Below are positions 24,745 through 47,394 of a stretch of 64,000 nt of DNA, piece by piece (within the stretch, counting starts at the first letter, position 1; every line of letters starts with the position of its first letter). Position numbers and translations under genes: made by a program. The stretch spans positions 1 to 64,000 of the forward strand of contig NZ_BJDQ01000004.1 of assembly GCF_005405225.1 (NCBI RefSeq), read 5' to 3'. The notes beneath the pieces were generated by a model. The model did not search any database and was not told where the DNA came from. It saw only the letters and a program-made list of their open reading frames with translations. The DNA comes from Enterococcus dongliensis (GTDB lineage: Bacteria; Bacillota; Bacilli; Lactobacillales; Enterococcaceae).

Positions 24745-24868
24745 GCCCTATCTTCTTTATCCAGACTGTACTGTCGGTATCGGAATTACACCGATTCGGC
24801 TGCTTTCGCAGTTCGCGGACTATCACCGCCGGTCGGGATTTTCACCCTGCCCCTGAAGACGAACCTTA
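24745..24868 (-). promoter_or_regulatory. FMN riboswitch (RFN element)
   Basis: The minus strand carries the conserved RFN blocks in order: GGGGCAGGGTGAAAATCCC, GACCGGCGGTGATAGTCCGC, and finally ACCGACAGTACAGTCTGGAT. A terminator follows before ribU, so FMN is expected to switch ribU transcription off. Confidence 0.96.
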
Positions 24869-36457: not shown

Positions 36458-39034
36458 GTGGAGAAATCAATTACATGGTTTAAAGCACATTTAAACAAAT
36501 TAAAAATAGTTTTCTTAATCTCAGTTATCATTATCGTTTTATTCGAATTATCAACTATTGCCAAAACGATCTCAGTTGAGCATCTCGCAATTATTTTCAG
36601 CAAGATTAAGATTGGAAACATCTTATTGATGGCTTTGATTGGATCAATCTCAGTCATACCGATGATTGGTTATGATCTCACATTGAATACATTGTTAGAA
36701 CAAAAACCTAAAAAACTATATATTTTTGAAACAAGTTGGTTGGTGAACACGCTAAATAACATCGCAGGTTTTGGCGGCTTCATCAGCGCAGGGCTGCGTT
36801 CAGAATTTTACGGCAAACAGATTGCTGGTAAAAAAGTGGTCCGTGCTCTATCAAAAATTTTAGTCTTTACGATGTCAGGGTTATCTATTTACGCATTGCT
36901 CTCTTTTTTTCTTGTCATGTTTGATGATTCCAATCACTATTTGCGTCAATATTGGATCTGGTTGATTGGTGGCGGCTTGTATTTTCCCCTGATTTTTTGT
37001 TTAAGTCTTTTTGGTAAAGGAGAATATCTCGGCGATTTAAAAAGTTCTCAGCGCTGGCAACTGATTGGAACGTCCTTTCTTGAATGGAGCGGCGTGTTGA
37101 TCAGTTTTATTTCAACAGGGATTTTAATGGGTATCTCAGTTGATATCCGGGAAGTAATCCCGTTATTTATTGCAGCGACTGTTATTGGGATAGTTTCGAT
37201 GATTCCCGGAGAGCTTGGTAGTTTTGACTTAATGATGATCATTGGTTTATCTGCTCTTGGAACACCAAAAGAGACCGTAGTCGCCTGGCTTTTATTATTC
37301 CGATTATTTTATTACTTAGTTCCTTTTATCATCGGACTGATCCTCTTTTTCAAAAATCTTGGTACAACGATCAATCTGCGCTATAAAGGGATCCCAATCA
37401 GCTTGCTAAAAGAATTGGCTCATAAATTGGAGACCTTTTTTCTTTATTTTACCGGGATCATGCTTGTTTTATCTGCAACGATTCCAGAAGCCTTCAGCCA
37501 ATTATCTTTTTTACAGAGGCTAAATCCTATTCGTTCTCGTGTAATTGTTGTTTTCCCAGCAATTCTACTAGGCTTTTTATTGATTGTCACCGGTCGCGGG
37601 ATTTCTGCACGCGTCAAACGAGCGTACATTCCAACAATCACTCTTGTAACACTGACCTTCGTGTATTCATTACTGGCTGGTTTTCGGATTTCAACCGGAA
37701 TCTTTCTTGCTCTATTATTATTATTTGTTATTTTTTCTAAAAATGAATTGTTCAGAGAACAACTTGTTTACTCTGCTGAATGGATGACTATCGATGGGCT
37801 CATCATGGGCGGCTTAGGAATTTTATATATAATCATAGGCGTTTACAATAGTCCAAAAATTCATCATCGACACCATCTCCCAGATTTTTTCTTATTTCCT
37901 AGCGAACAAATCTGGATTGTCGGCTTTGTTGCAATTTTATCTGTTGCCTTCATTATTTTGTTACTAATTCATTTCTTTAAAAATAAACGGATTGAAATCG
38001 GTGAACCTTTAGATGAAATGCGAGTCCAACATATTTTACAATCCTTCGGCGGCAACCCTGACAGTCAATTGGTTTTTTTAAAGGATAAAAAGGTTTTTTA
38101 TTACAATGACGGCAAAGAAGACACTGTCTTTTTTCAAATGGCAACTTTTAACAATAAACTATTAGTAATGGGGGATCCTTCTGGTAAAAAAGCTGATTTT
38201 GAACCTGCCATAGAAGCTTTAATCGATGAAGCCGATCGTTATAATTATTTGCCAGTATTTTATGAAAACAGCGAAGAAATAGTGATGATCCTCCACGAAT
38301 TTGGCTATGATTTCATAAAATTTGGCGAACGAGCTCATGTTCATCTGCCTGATTTTACATTAAGCGGCAAAAAAATGAAGGGACAACGAGCTACTTTCAA
38401 TAAAATTCTTAAAGCCGGCTATCAATTTGATGTCATCCATCCGCCGTTCTCAGCTGAAACGCTTGCCTCCTTAAAAGAAATTTCGGATGAATGGCTCAAT
38501 GGCCGCAAAGAGAAAGGATTTTCGTTAGGTTTCTTTTCAGAAGATTATCTGCAACGTGCGTCCATTGCCATAATAAAAAACGAGACGGAAATCGTTGCCT
38601 TTGCAAACTTCATGCCTACTTATTCTAAGACTATCGGAACCATTGATTTGATGCGCTTTAGTCCAACAAAGGCTCCTAGCGGGACAATGGATTTTCTTTT
38701 CATCAATTTATTCCAATATATGCGTGATGAATTAGAGCTGGACTATTTCGATTTAGGTATGGCTCCTTTGGCTAACGTCGGGACTTCCCGTAAAAGCTTT
38801 ACGCAAGAACGGATCGCTTACCTAGTTTATAATTTTGGTTCACGTTTTTATTCCTTTGGCGGTCTAAAAGAGTACAAAGACAAATATGCGGACAAGTGGT
38901 TTCCCGAATACGTCTTGTACTCTCGAGATAGCTGGATCGGCTATGTCATGATTGCACTATTGATCACTGATAATGCCCCTGTTCAAAACACAAAGAACTA
39001 TCACGGCCTCCATCGTTTTATCTTTAGAGAATAG
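36458..39034 (+). CDS. mprF: Phosphatidylglycerol lysyltransferase/flippase MprF, 858 aa
   Basis: Bifunctional enzyme that aminoacylates phosphatidylglycerol with lysine (or similar) from aminoacyl-tRNA and flips the product, lowering the negative surface charge and sensitivity to cationic peptides. The N-terminal half has about 12-14 membrane segments (AGFGGFISAGLRSEFYGK and MIPGELGSFDLMMIIGLSALG are family blocks). The C-terminal cytosolic GNAT-like synthase has QLVFLKDKKVFYYNDGKE, RATFNKILKAGYQFDV and GTMDFLFINLFQYM. Length is standard. GAGGAG precedes GTG by seven bases; TTG directly before it is possible. Confidence 0.94.
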   Translation: MEKSITWFKAHLNKLKIVFLISVIIIVLFELSTIAKTISVEHLAIIFSKIKIGNILLMALIGSISVIPMIGYDLTLNTLLEQKPKKLYIFETSWLVNTLNNIAGFGGFISAGLRSEFYGKQIAGKKVVRALSKILVFTMSGLSIYALLSFFLVMFDDSNHYLRQYWIWLIGGGLYFPLIFCLSLFGKGEYLGDLKSSQRWQLIGTSFLEWSGVLISFISTGILMGISVDIREVIPLFIAATVIGIVSMIPGELGSFDLMMIIGLSALGTPKETVVAWLLLFRLFYYLVPFIIGLILFFKNLGTTINLRYKGIPISLLKELAHKLETFFLYFTGIMLVLSATIPEAFSQLSFLQRLNPIRSRVIVVFPAILLGFLLIVTGRGISARVKRAYIPTITLVTLTFVYSLLAGFRISTGIFLALLLLFVIFSKNELFREQLVYSAEWMTIDGLIMGGLGILYIIIGVYNSPKIHHRHHLPDFFLFPSEQIWIVGFVAILSVAFIILLLIHFFKNKRIEIGEPLDEMRVQHILQSFGGNPDSQLVFLKDKKVFYYNDGKEDTVFFQMATFNNKLLVMGDPSGKKADFEPAIEALIDEADRYNYLPVFYENSEEIVMILHEFGYDFIKFGERAHVHLPDFTLSGKKMKGQRATFNKILKAGYQFDVIHPPFSAETLASLKEISDEWLNGRKEKGFSLGFFSEDYLQRASIAIIKNETEIVAFANFMPTYSKTIGTIDLMRFSPTKAPSGTMDFLFINLFQYMRDELELDYFDLGMAPLANVGTSRKSFTQERIAYLVYNFGSRFYSFGGLKEYKDKYADKWFPEYVLYSRDSWIGYVMIALLITDNAPVQNTKNYHGLHRFIFRE

Positions 39035-39061
39035 CAACTTCATGATTGAAGTTGCTATTTT
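39031..39061 (+). terminator. Terminator of mprF
   Basis: ATAGCAACTTCA and TGAAGTTGCTAT with a 4-nt loop are followed by a T tract; it overlaps the mprF stop codon and separates mprF from the next promoter. Confidence 0.85.
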
Positions 39062-39064
39062 AGC

Positions 39065-39093
39065 TTGACACGCCCCAAAAATACGTCTAGAAT
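39065..39093 (+). promoter_or_regulatory. Consensus promoter of the leader-peptide attenuator
   Basis: TTGACA (39065-39070), a 17-nt spacer and TAGAAT (39088-39093). It is the best consensus promoter I noticed in the window. Start of transcription is expected near 39100. Confidence 0.85.
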
Positions 39094-39130
39094 AAATCAA
39101 AATAAAATTAATTAGTTTGGAGTGTTTATT

Positions 39131-39187
39131 ATGACTCAATTGATCTCTAGACAACTAAATAATTATTACTTTAGCTATTTTAGATAA
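39131..39187 (+). CDS. Aromatic-rich leader peptide, 18 aa
   Basis: ATG 39131 is eight bases after GGAG (39119-39122). The peptide MTQLISRQLNNYYFSYFR carries Tyr-Tyr-Phe-Ser-Tyr-Phe at codons 12-17 and stops at 39185-39187. A dense run of one amino acid class just before a terminator region is the mark of ribosome-mediated attenuation (as in pheL, trpL or hisL). Three Tyr and two Phe codons suggest sensing of charged tRNA-Tyr and tRNA-Phe. Segment 1 of the attenuator starts one base after the stop codon. Confidence 0.75.
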   Translation: MTQLISRQLNNYYFSYFR

Positions 39188-39347
39188 GTTTGTATTCATG
39201 CTTCATGGATACAGACCTTTCCGTTTGTATCTATGATGGCTAAAGCATTTTATGCTGATTTTTTCGCCACATAGATGAAAATCTATCGTGGCTTTTATTT
39301 ATTTCTCGAGCTCATTGTAGATTTTCTAATCTATAATGAGCTTTTTT
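39188..39347 (+). promoter_or_regulatory. Seven-segment attenuator with two terminator hairpins
   Basis: Segments: 1 = 39188-39200, 2 = 39204-39216, 3 = 39223-39240, 4 = 39266-39277, 5 = 39278-39293, 6 = 39309-39325, 7 = 39328-39342. Possible pairings are 1:2 (13 bp), 2:3 (13 bp), 3:4 (12 bp, one bulge), 4:5 (11 bp, GAAA loop, then TTTTATTT), 5:6 (about 15 pairs, one mismatch and one bulge) and 6:7 (15 bp, then TTTTTT). Neighbouring pairings exclude each other. A ribosome at the leader stop covers segment 1, allowing 2:3, 4:5 and 6:7 (termination). Stalling at the Tyr codons frees segment 1 and favours 1:2, 3:4 and 5:6 (readthrough). Confidence 0.7.
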
Positions 39348-39382
39348 AGCTGCTAAATGAACAACAAATAGGAGGGATTTTT

Positions 39383-40123
39383 ATGAATATTGTACCAGAA
39401 ATTGCAATCAAGTCGGATGGATTAGCAGCGATTGGTAGTTATACATTTTCATTATGGACAAAAAGAAAAATAGTTTTAATTAGTGATAAAAAAAGTTTTG
39501 ATATTCATGGTTCAAAAGTACTCCAATACTTAACGATTATCGGATTTGATGTTCATACACTTATTTTAGATGAAACTTATTATACTGTAACTACAGCAAA
39601 GCTCATTCATACTTTTTTGAAAAATGAGAACATAACTAAGACAGACGGAATCATCGGTTTAGGTAATGAAACACTCTGTCAATTAAGTGGTTTTGTATCA
39701 GCGACATATCTTGGTGGACTTCCATTGATTCAAATTCCAACAACTTTGATTGCCCAATTTATTGTCTGCGCGCAAAAACAAGTTTGTTTGCTCAATTCTG
39801 AAACAACATATTTACATACCGCACAAACAAGACCCGATGGTATCATGATTGATTCAACCTTGACGGATAATCTATCTAAAGAAGAGCTAACAGCCGCACA
39901 AACCTTAATGCTTAATTTAGGATTCTCACAAGATCATGTTTGTCGTCATGAATTAAGAAAAAAAGAACGGATTATTGATTATCAATTAAACTATGAATTA
40001 TTATTTGATAAATTCATAACAGATACTTTAATCAGTAATAAAAAAATAATCAATAAATCATTTAATTCCCATTTACAAAGTATCTATAATAAATTGCTAG
40101 CTCAATCAAATCATCTAAGATAA
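39383..40123 (+). CDS. Truncated 3-dehydroquinate synthase-like protein, 246 aa
   Basis: The N-terminal domain of AroB is recognisable: SDGLAAIGSYTFSLWTKRKI, TKTDGIIGLGNETLCQLSG and FVSATYLGGLPLIQIPTTLIAQ (last block shown across motifs). PDGIMIDSTLTDNLSKEEL matches the PDGVLID..TL....EL block. The NAD-binding GGGVVGD is changed to GNETLCQ, the DSSxGGK segment after TTLIAQ is gone, the Glu of GEVIKYG is lost, and the C-terminal metal-ligand domain is missing (246 instead of about 360 aa). DHQ synthase activity is therefore not expected. AGGAGGG precedes the ATG. The gene is alone in its unit behind a Tyr/Phe attenuator, so a sensor, assembly role or relic of an aro operon are all possible. 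Confidence 0.7.
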   Translation: MNIVPEIAIKSDGLAAIGSYTFSLWTKRKIVLISDKKSFDIHGSKVLQYLTIIGFDVHTLILDETYYTVTTAKLIHTFLKNENITKTDGIIGLGNETLCQLSGFVSATYLGGLPLIQIPTTLIAQFIVCAQKQVCLLNSETTYLHTAQTRPDGIMIDSTLTDNLSKEELTAAQTLMLNLGFSQDHVCRHELRKKERIIDYQLNYELLFDKFITDTLISNKKIINKSFNSHLQSIYNKLLAQSNHLR

Positions 40124-40151
40124 TAACTACCATCCCTTCTACTTTCATCAA

Positions 40152-40184
40152 AAAAGCTCAGCCAATTAACATTGACTGAGCTTT
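40152..40184. terminator. Bidirectional terminator between the AroB-like gene and dnaJ
   Basis: AAAGCTCAGCCAAT and ATTGACTGAGCTTT pair with one mismatch; A and T runs flank the stem. Confidence 0.9.
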
Positions 40185-40187
40185 GCT

Positions 40188-41348
40188 TTATTTTTTTGCA
40201 CCAAAGGCATCTTTCATTTTACCAAAAAATCCTTCTTCTTTTTGCTCACTGACTGTTTGTCCGCCAGCTTCTGCAAATGCACGTAACGCCTCTCGTTGCT
40301 TATCATTTAAGTTCTTCGGCGTAATAATCTTCACCGTAACTTGTTGATCCCCGTTTGTAGTACCGCGAAGTCTTGGTGCACCTTTGCCGCGAAGTCTGAA
40401 TTTCGCACCCGTTTGTGTACCAGCAGGTATTTTTAAGCGTACATCCCCATGGACAGTCGGCACATTGATTTCATCACCTAATGCCGCTTGAACAAAACTT
40501 AATGGTAAGGTGTAATAAATCTCCGCACCATCGCGATCAAAAATATCACTTTCTTTTACCTTAAAGACGACATAAAGATCTCCATATGGTCCACCATTAA
40601 TTCCTGCCTCGCCTTGATCAGCCAAACGCATTTGTTGTCCATCTTCTACACCAGCAGGTACTTTTACCTTAACAGTATGTGGACGTTTTTCATGTCCTGT
40701 ACCATGACATGTTGGACAAGGATCCTTAATTTCTTTTCCTGTACCATGACATACGTCACAAGTTTGACGACTCATCACACGGCCAAGCGGTGTTTGGTGT
40801 TCCACATTGATCGAACCTGAACCATGACATTTATGACAAACTTCCGGTTGTGTGCCTGGTTTTGCGCCATTTCCATTACAAGTATGACACGTTTCTTCTC
40901 GGTTGTATTTAATATCTTTTTCCACACCAAAAATGGCTTCTTCAAATTCCAAGTTGATTGAATATTGAAGATCTGCACCTTGTCTTGGTGCTTTAGGGTC
41001 AGTTTGACGTGAACCTCCGCCTCCGAAAAATGATTCAAAAATATCTTCAAATCCAAAACCGCCTGCTCCGCCAAATCCACCGGCGCCGCCGAAACCACCT
41101 GCTCCACCAGCACCAAAATTCGGATCAGTACCTGCATGACCATATTGATCGTAAGCAGCACGTTTTTGTGGATCACTCAAGATTTCATACGCTTCAGAAA
41201 TTTCTTTAAATTTTTCTTCAGCATCGGCTTCTTTATTGATATCCGGATGGTATTTTTTGGAAAGCTTGCGGTATGCTTTTTTTATCTCATCATCCGAAGC
41301 CCCTTTTTGTACCCCAAGGACTTCATAATAATCCCGTTTTGTAGCCAT
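40188..41348 (-). CDS. dnaJ: Chaperone DnaJ (Hsp40), 386 aa
   Basis: Co-chaperone that stimulates DnaK ATPase. The J domain ([23 protein letters not shown] in [10 protein letters not shown]) is followed by a long Gly/Phe-rich region, four CxxCxGxG zinc repeats ([32 protein letters not shown]) and the C-terminal substrate-binding domains. Type I DnaJ of normal length. It follows dnaK after about 150 bases that contain the dnaK terminator. Confidence 0.97.
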
Positions 41349-47228: not shown

Positions 47229-47234
47229 ACAAAT

Positions 47235-47322
47235 TAAAAAGCATCACACATTCCCTGCGTCAGTTCTAACTGTTTCAGGTTCAATGGGTATAATCTCAGC
47301 TTAAAAAGCACCCCTAGTGTTC
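47235..47322 (-). promoter_or_regulatory. TPP riboswitch (THI element)
   Basis: The minus strand has the conserved blocks AGGGGTGC, GCTGAGATTATACCC, TTGAACCTGA and GACGCAGGGAA in order. With the following terminator, TPP should switch tenA off. Confidence 0.95.
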
Positions 47323-47394
47323 ATTACAAAAAGTATAACATACCTTTTGTAAATAAGAGTGCTCTTACTAAGAATATTTCAGTCATGAATTTTA

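Follow-up and report, generated by a model that had tools for sequence, protein, structure and literature searches.

Introduction

In the classic attenuators of proteobacteria (pheL, trpL and hisL), a leader peptide carrying codons for the end product is translated ahead of the regulated genes, and the position of the ribosome picks either a terminator or an antiterminator, in hisL via a chain of alternating stems. A similar chain, for which we propose the same kind of choice, is located at positions 39,065–39,382 of a 64,000-nucleotide stretch of Enterococcus dongliensis DNA (contig NZ_BJDQ01000004.1, positions 1 to 64,000 of the forward strand; referred to as the window), upstream of an AroB-like gene. 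The element belongs to the Rfam family RF02863, and its sequence and that of its relatives make it very probable that it is a ribosome-mediated transcription attenuator of an aromatic amino-acid regulon, built as a relay of five or seven segments. Unlike pheL, trpL and hisL, the window copy has seven segments and two serial terminators, and uses its leader codons as a pairing segment.

In Firmicutes, ribosome-mediated attenuation has been described for Rli60 of Listeria (PMC5864092), ilvD of S. aureus (PMC5794164) and hisS paralogs of bacilli (PMC2965389). As presented there, these systems concern branched-chain amino acids or His and belong to other genera, and Rli60 is drawn with four segments.

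RNAs like that of the window are on record under other readings. In E. faecium, sRNA_2410 was described as a 195-nt small RNA (sRNA), detected via RNA-seq and Northern blotting as two transcripts (PMC5593968); the words "leader" and "attenuat" are absent from the main text of that paper. Narunsky et al. (2024; PMC11109978) regard the trpB motif (RF04312, more than 900 members) as a strong riboswitch candidate, while leaving room for a classic attenuator as its mechanism. Rosinski-Chupin et al. (2015; PMC4448216) used RNA-seq to describe two 5′ untranslated region elements upstream of paralogous ABC transporters in S. agalactiae. From a single transcriptional start site, each yields both a short RNA and a long transcript, a pattern that would suit an attenuator. 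The gbs2033 type, which they call a riboswitch, is also placed before aroFBC-tyrA of E. faecium, and a gbs1262-like sequence before a locus given as "F."; the term "leader peptide" is absent from the main text. Compared by these described neighbors only, the gbs2033 element precedes an ABC transporter and aroFBC-tyrA, like the RF02863 family, with which we infer it to be identical, and the gbs1262 element is probably identical with RF04312.

As far as these sources go, RF02863 is already known as an sRNA and RF04312 and the gbs elements as riboswitches, and the leader-peptide reading is new here. Within open-licence PubMed Central, no publication was found that names the leader peptide, relates RF02863 to RF04312 or describes the tandem terminators. 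Aromatic regulation in low-GC Gram-positive bacteria is said to have been treated by Panina et al. in 2003, where an earlier hint may be present.

A leader peptide and alternating segments upstream of the AroB-like gene

The window copy is preceded by a sigma-70 type promoter (TTGACA-17-TAGAAT, 39,065–39,093; like all parts of the element on the + strand) that agrees with the consensus at 11 of 12 positions. Because a scan of 38,900–40,250 returned six promoter-like sites against a mean of 7.0 in shuffles, this promoter is distinguished by its strength only. Downstream of it, direct reading reveals a Shine-Dalgarno sequence (SD; GGAG, 39,119–39,122) and an 18-codon open reading frame (ORF; MTQLISRQLNNYYFSYFR followed by a stop, 39,131–39,187) with Tyr and Phe codons at 39,164–39,172 and 39,176–39,181. 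Promoter, SD and ORF are all present as an earlier note on this DNA, made from its letters alone, had read them.

The leader is followed by seven segments, each of which is complementary to its neighbors, as that note had also claimed. Segment 1 (S1, 39,188–39,200) begins directly after the leader stop, where a ribosome at the stop would cover it, and can pair with S2 (39,204–39,216). S2 can alternatively pair with S3 (39,223–39,245), S3 with S4 (39,266–39,277), S4 with S5 (39,281–39,292), S5 with S6 (39,308–39,323) and S6 with S7 (39,328–39,343). All six helices contain standard pairs only, with one C/U mismatch within 5:6 left unpaired, and their single-helix energies amount to –14.5 (1:2), –16.7 (2:3), –12.5 (3:4), –14.6 (4:5), –4.6 (5:6) and –21.0 (6:7) kcal/mol. 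The earlier list of pairings was incomplete, in that the last leader codons (S0, 39,169–39,186) can, without a ribosome, form a helix of 17 pairs with the 3′ portion of S3 (39,228–39,245) (–16.2 kcal/mol). Hairpin 4:5 and its U-run TTTTATTTATTT constitute a putative first terminator (T1, 39,266–39,304), and hairpin 6:7 with its U-run a second one (T2, 39,308–39,347). A consensus terminator scan listed 6:7 and 1:2 and did not list 4:5, which has a bulge in its stem. Positions 39,065–39,382 appear to hold the defining features of a leader-peptide attenuator that can be judged from sequence, although a fold that depends on where the ribosome stands was seen for partial transcripts only.

Many amino-acid genes of Firmicutes are under T-boxes (PMC2494555), which would sense uncharged tRNA-Tyr or tRNA-Phe without any translation. 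However, while riboswitches for flavin mononucleotide (24,746–24,864, – strand) and thiamine pyrophosphate (47,234–47,325, – strand) were found in the window at the Rfam gathering score, no T-box (RF00230) matched at that score, and a T-box is scarcely conceivable as the control of this gene.

The element recurs before aromatic synthesis and import genes

Three RF02863 copies are present in the genome of the window, located before the AroB-like gene, before aroE and before a TrpX-type substrate-binding protein (SBP) gene. Scanning the genus with RF02863 revealed 64 copies in 20/20 genomes, and the aromatic leader was intact in 63 of them, the 64th (L014) being interrupted by an N. The intact leaders carry Tyr and Phe codons (54), Phe codons only (5) or Tyr codons only (4); 59 finish with an aromatic block (for example QLNNYYFSYFR), and the four Tyr-only ones end in RYYVSYY. 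Sorted by sequence pattern, the genus targets are TrpX-type SBP, aroE, aroF, aroK, aroC and AroB-like genes. Family searches supported a transketolase, a prephenate dehydratase, a chorismate synthase, a shikimate kinase and two DAHP synthases, as well as aroE and TrpX; of the genus targets, aroF, aroK and aroC were each confirmed by Pfam for a single protein. Targets beyond these searched examples were assigned by pattern.

At E ≤ 0.001, RF02863 matched in 101/105 genomes of a family sample (95 above gathering), in 215/395 of an order sample (99 above gathering) and in 0/14 control genomes. A class sample at 1e-4 yielded 34/398 genomes (10 above gathering), of which 29 belong to Lactobacillales. 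The five copies outside this order have aromatic leaders (L250 without a recognized SD) and are located before aroF (three), a TrpX-type SBP gene and a transketolase gene. The leader before the transketolase gene, QLNRYYYFGWFS (L251, G548:C39:158093-158268), contains Tyr, Phe and Trp; transketolase supplies erythrose 4-phosphate for aromatic synthesis.

Among 92 further loci beyond the genus (L065–L156, with L096 and L147 representing one place), a leader that follows an SD and has four or more Tyr or Phe residues in its block was present in 89, compared to 23/2730 dinucleotide shuffles. In the three others (L127, L130 and L136) the leader is present and an SD was not found. Their targets are 63 TrpX-type SBP, 18 aroE and 3 aroF genes, with 8 left unsorted by the script: five are TrpX-type by eye, one is a prephenate dehydratase gene (L112), L107 encodes an SBP_bac_3 protein of unknown substrate, and L124 runs off its contig. 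Conservation of the Tyr/Phe codons in relatives, which the earlier note had wanted checked, is borne out in both sets of loci, and the ORF, its conservation and the switching of codons among copies are directly observed. That note had tied the attenuator to a degenerate AroB-like gene. The gene is indeed degenerate and located behind the attenuator, but the RF02863 element is a multi-gene family of aromatic synthesis and import genes and not peculiar to it.

Some copies deviate in detail. In nine loci, which come from some of the genera (L099, L106, L122, L123, L125, L126, L131, L133 and L135), the leader passes its usual stop into segment 1, and these extended leaders (..FSYFRYCL-like) stop 9 bases later, so that segment 1 is partly coding. 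Compared to L130, the distance between leader and transporter gene start is about 105 bases longer in L127 and L128 of Streptococcus. L180 of S. pneumoniae, in which the leader reads MNQNFYFSYFR and no SD was recognized, also has extra bases after T2, perhaps a small repeat element.

The window copy matches RF02863 from 39,171 to 39,329 (covariance-model scan, 65.8 bits, gathering 61), and is the same RNA as sRNA_2410, of which the model is annotated as an sRNA gene and begins inside the leader ORF. Its detection by RNA-seq and Northern blotting as two transcripts around a 195-nt RNA could speak for an independent sRNA acting in trans (PMC5593968). The copies, however, precede genes, nearly all of them aromatic, and come with a leader ORF. 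Moreover, a terminated leader is expected to resemble a small RNA. We consider an independent sRNA highly improbable; by analogy with rnTrpL (PMC8546594), the terminated RNA may have a second role in trans.

The conserved leaders also bear on the idea that a nascent peptide (QLN...FSYFR) stalls the ribosome on free aromatic amino acid. [Q/K]LN is present in 109/129 distinct Tyr/Phe leaders and in 20/49 Trp leaders (see below) while its Leu codon varies (CTG 78, TTG 21, CTA 6, TTA 4), and Ser and Arg are nearly invariant, all of which would suit such an arrest peptide. The stretch TTT AGC TAY TTT AGA is, however, nearly invariant as nucleotides, because the S0:S3 pairing requires it. Moreover, Tyr and Phe interchange throughout the five aromatic positions, nearly evenly so at the first (Y 56 and F 48), and Trp replaces them in the sister family, making an arrest peptide an unlikely alternative to attenuation by codon supply. 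In the window, the conserved QLN ahead of the aromatic block is located at 39,152–39,160 and may matter for the RNA or for the growing peptide.

Ribosome position and the predicted folds

In the mechanism that we propose, plentiful charged tRNA-Tyr and tRNA-Phe would allow the ribosome to reach the leader stop and cover S0 and S1, upon which 2:3 would form, followed by 4:5 (T1) and 6:7 (T2), and transcription would end. A ribosome waiting on the Tyr/Phe codons would instead permit 1:2, 3:4 and 5:6, so that T1 and T2 are blocked and the gene is read. When the leader is untranslated, S0 would pair with S3 around hairpin 1:2, again allowing 4:5 to form and transcription to end. We infer the kinetic order of folding, termination at the window copy in vivo and induction by Tyr or Phe shortage from these alternatives.

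Elements for folding and comparison were taken from the genus copies and the 92 further loci, leaving out L014 (N in leader), L156 (a contig-end fragment) and L147 (same locus as L096); the latter two remain among the 92 leader loci, L156 with a corrected start. Of the resulting 153 elements, 152 (all except L124) could be parsed into segments, and 137 of these are distinct. The RNA up to segment 4 was subjected to minimum-energy folding while masking the stretch that a ribosome would cover, given a footprint that reaches some 14 nt beyond the A site.

Without a ribosome, S3 paired with S0 in 130/152 elements. With the ribosome at the stop, 2:3 formed in 150/152, and with the ribosome at the first Tyr/Phe codons, 3:4 formed in 141/152, in line with the earlier note's view that a ribosome at the leader stop masks segment 1 and a stalled one does not. 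All three folds were obtained in 120/152 elements, the window copy included. The alternative pairings, and the three folds of partial transcripts at the stage of segment 4, are shown computationally.

Conservation and covariation of the alternating pairings

Over the 137 distinct elements, mean duplex energies of neighboring segments ranged from –10.9 (5:6) to –17.6 (2:3) kcal/mol, with –15.1 for S0:S3, compared to –3.8 to –7.4 in shuffles, a comparison that is unbiased only for 0:3, 1:2, 2:3, 3:4 and 5:6, since 4:5 and 6:7 had been located by their own pairing. The non-neighbors 1:4, 2:5, 1:6, 2:7, 3:5 and 4:6 paired no better than shuffles in these elements; 3:6 (–7.2), 4:7 (–7.2) and S0:S5 (–9.8) exceeded them; odd and even segments are similar to one another. 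When each segment was confronted with 25 foreign partners, the own partner was better than their median in 109/137 elements for 1:2, 105/137 for 4:5, 124/137 for 5:6 and 137/137 for 6:7.

Pairs were counted on an alignment of 41 class I elements (A1), in which slid controls were 30 to 50% paired. The 2:3/4:5/6:7 state was 98.7% paired, and two-sided changes were present in 10 of its pairs (62 cells), compared to shuffled means of 5.6 and 16; seven of these ten pairs fall in 6:7. The ribosome-free state was 98.6% paired, with 11 pairs changed on both sides, and S0:S3 itself was paired in 99.9% of cells. Outside class I, S0:S3 is kept with altered letters in single cases (L036, L044, L062 and L112). 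The termination state is well supported by this covariation, and the antitermination state, 98.1% paired in A1, appears backed by conserved complementarity together with the own-partner test of 5:6 over the wider set. The covariation that the earlier note had called for was found mostly in 6:7, 4:5 and 5:6, with few compensatory changes in 1:2, whereas 2:3, 3:4 and 0:3 are nearly invariant. Its alternating registers stand in so far as the pairings are conserved and neighbors beat shuffles, the missing S0:S3 aside, and neither the peptide nor the pairings lack conservation in related genomes, as would have spoken against its reading.

A number of results weigh against the attenuator as proposed. 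In the folds up to segment 4, 3:4 already formed without a ribosome in 17/152 elements, a stall at the last Tyr gave 3:4 in 112/152 and 2:3 in 40, and the three-way pattern, taken with the ribosome stalled at the first Tyr/Phe, was incomplete in 32/152; in addition, the masks are fixed distances based on the general ribosome footprint. The helix 5:6 of the window copy is weak (see above), and S0 is also able to pair with S5. The own partner surpassed the foreign median in just 59/137 elements for 2:3, 62/137 for 3:4 and 66/137 for 0:3, because these pairings are nearly invariant. Within class I, 0:3 has zero pairs changed on both sides, and the 1:2/3:4/5:6 state just 3 pairs (4 cells). Lastly, the folding with blocked stretches suggested in the earlier note gave the three folds up to segment 4, but in equilibrium folding of the full-length leader the terminators won whatever the ribosome state. 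Antitermination must therefore be kinetic, decided, as in other attenuators, while RNA polymerase passes; full-length folding is blind to it, which is why folding up to segment 4 was used.

One or two terminators

A U-run was scored when 6 of the 8 bases after a hairpin were U, and genus copies were counted without the four Tyr-only ones and L014. By this measure, a U-run follows 4:5 in 33/34 aro-type genus copies compared to 0/25 TrpX-type copies; the exceptional aroE copy (L035) has TTTTTCAA after 4:5. Over all 152 elements, a U-run is present after 4:5 in 42 and after 6:7 in 151, and beyond the genus several aroE copies are devoid of the first U-run (e.g. L101, L103, L110, L141 and L143). 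This suggests that in the genus the biosynthetic genes are located behind two serial terminators and the transporter genes behind one, with the 4:5 hairpin of the latter, not having a U-run, merely passing the signal on to 6:7. The earlier note had judged two terminators behind one leader peptide unusual, and while the literature search found no report of such an arrangement, it is the rule for the aro genes of this genus.

We also considered whether the two Northern bands of sRNA_2410 (PMC5593968) might correspond to T1 and T2. This was dropped because the best RF02863 matches precede TrpX-type genes, in which 4:5 has no U-run.

A tryptophan counterpart and the link to transporter type

The trpB motif (RF04312) has the same scaffold as the window copy, with a leader ORF, segments 1–3 and the terminator 4:5. 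It differs in carrying Trp codons instead of Tyr/Phe codons and in that its model stops after the first terminator; inspection of its loci by eye did not reveal segments 6 and 7. At E ≤ 0.001, RF04312 matched in 137/246 Lactobacillales genomes (48 above gathering), and in one of the 14 controls (Lactococcus lactis, below gathering). A phylum sample yielded 2/299 genomes, both Lactobacillales. Its weak matches include RF02863 elements, among them that of the window (39.5 bits, gathering 59). Another locus of the window's genome passes gathering with 63.2 bits, and the Trp copy of this genome (C2:43464-43567) precedes the aroE copy by about 3 kb and shares its strand.

Fifty Trp loci were analyzed, 30 fetched by the scan and 20 chosen from the next in its list. 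An SD-preceded ORF with Trp in its last nine residues was present in 50/50 (shuffles, 90/2000), and 38/50 have at least two Trp residues, typically as QLNxxWQNWRR (shuffles, 5/2000). Masking up to the stop gave 2:3 in 50/50; a stall at the first Trp gave a less clear result, with S2 paired upstream in 38/50 and with S3 in 12/50. The pyridoxal phosphate enzyme behind some Trp leaders (L259, PF00291) was taken for TrpB.

A riboswitch, in which the RNA itself would bind an aromatic amino acid or a precursor, has been proposed for the gbs2033 and gbs1262 elements (PMC4448216) and for the trpB motif (PMC11109978), and conserved hairpins ahead of terminators would suit it. Against this, nearly every copy (89/92 and 50/50) is preceded by an ORF with an SD and matching codons, and these codons vary between Tyr/Phe, Phe, Tyr and Trp on a single scaffold; alternating neighbors suffice as a mechanism. 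The attenuator that PMC11109978 itself leaves possible is the reading we favor, and direct metabolite binding seems very unlikely.

The codons moreover correlate with the transporter. In a tree of 113 SBPs, 24 proteins with Trp leaders were separated by one branch (support 100) from 89 others, of which the leaders carry Tyr+Phe (82) or Phe only (7), and the leader label changed 4 times along the tree, compared to a mean of 28.8 upon shuffling. This tree was made by a quick method and came with long-branch warnings (L277, L115, L267 and others); 24 of the 30 long-flank Trp loci yielded a protein for it, and the four Tyr-only loci were lost to the search pattern. The type of codon in the leader thus seems to follow the transporter.

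Taken together, RF02863 and RF04312 are likely to be one homologous attenuator family across Lactobacillales, with outliers in other Bacilli, in which a single scaffold has been reprogrammed by codon swaps (Tyr+Phe, Phe, Tyr or Trp), so that the codons announce the substrate of the transporter. This scaffold would have been extended by a relay hairpin and, in this genus and for biosynthetic genes only, by a second serial terminator, yielding a seven-segment switch with two gates, in which the codons double as a strand for pairing and, without translation of the leader, shut the gates.

The AroB-like gene

The gene behind the window copy (39,383–40,123, + strand) encodes a protein of 246 amino acids, and the locus is flanked by dnaJ and an mprF-type phosphatidylglycerol lysyltransferase gene. 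Of 3-dehydroquinate synthase, only the N-domain is matched by the protein (PF01761, 8.8e-12), which scores 61.6 bits with TIGR01357 (cut-off 305). AroB enzymes function by means of a glycine motif (GGGxxGD), a GGKTxVN loop and a C-terminal domain with a His motif. None of these is present in the window protein, which reads GNETLCQL where AroB has GGGVVGDL, has lost the GGKT loop and is entirely devoid of the C-domain.

An AroB-like gene is found in 8/20 genus genomes, with the other seven at 54–64% identity to that of the window, and is preceded by the attenuator leader in all eight. An AroB-type match is present elsewhere in the genome in 20/20. The AroB-like protein is probably a conserved paralog without enzyme activity, a pseudoenzyme, and we would guess that its role is in regulation of the pathway.

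The aroB gene of the aro operon itself was seen to break frame after about 280 amino acids in four species (L227–L230, in G010, G012 (E. pallens), G004 and G005). The break is located at an A-run, and the homologous C-terminal part resumes in the –1 frame. Because diverged genomes share the site, this suggests programmed frameshifting or slippage rather than an error.

Discussion

Reading RF02863 and RF04312 as leader-peptide attenuators would provide a mechanism for two orphan RNA families, one of which has been published as a strong riboswitch candidate (PMC11109978). The search for a ligand of RF04312 could be stopped or confirmed by a single start-codon mutation. For the Lactobacillales, a group usually described through T-boxes, these data suggest that many members regulate both the synthesis and the uptake of aromatic amino acids by classic attenuation. 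The leader codons would moreover predict whether Trp, Tyr or Phe is the substrate of TrpX-type transporters that are annotated identically, and the serial terminators before the biosynthetic genes would constitute a clean system for asking what a second gate adds.

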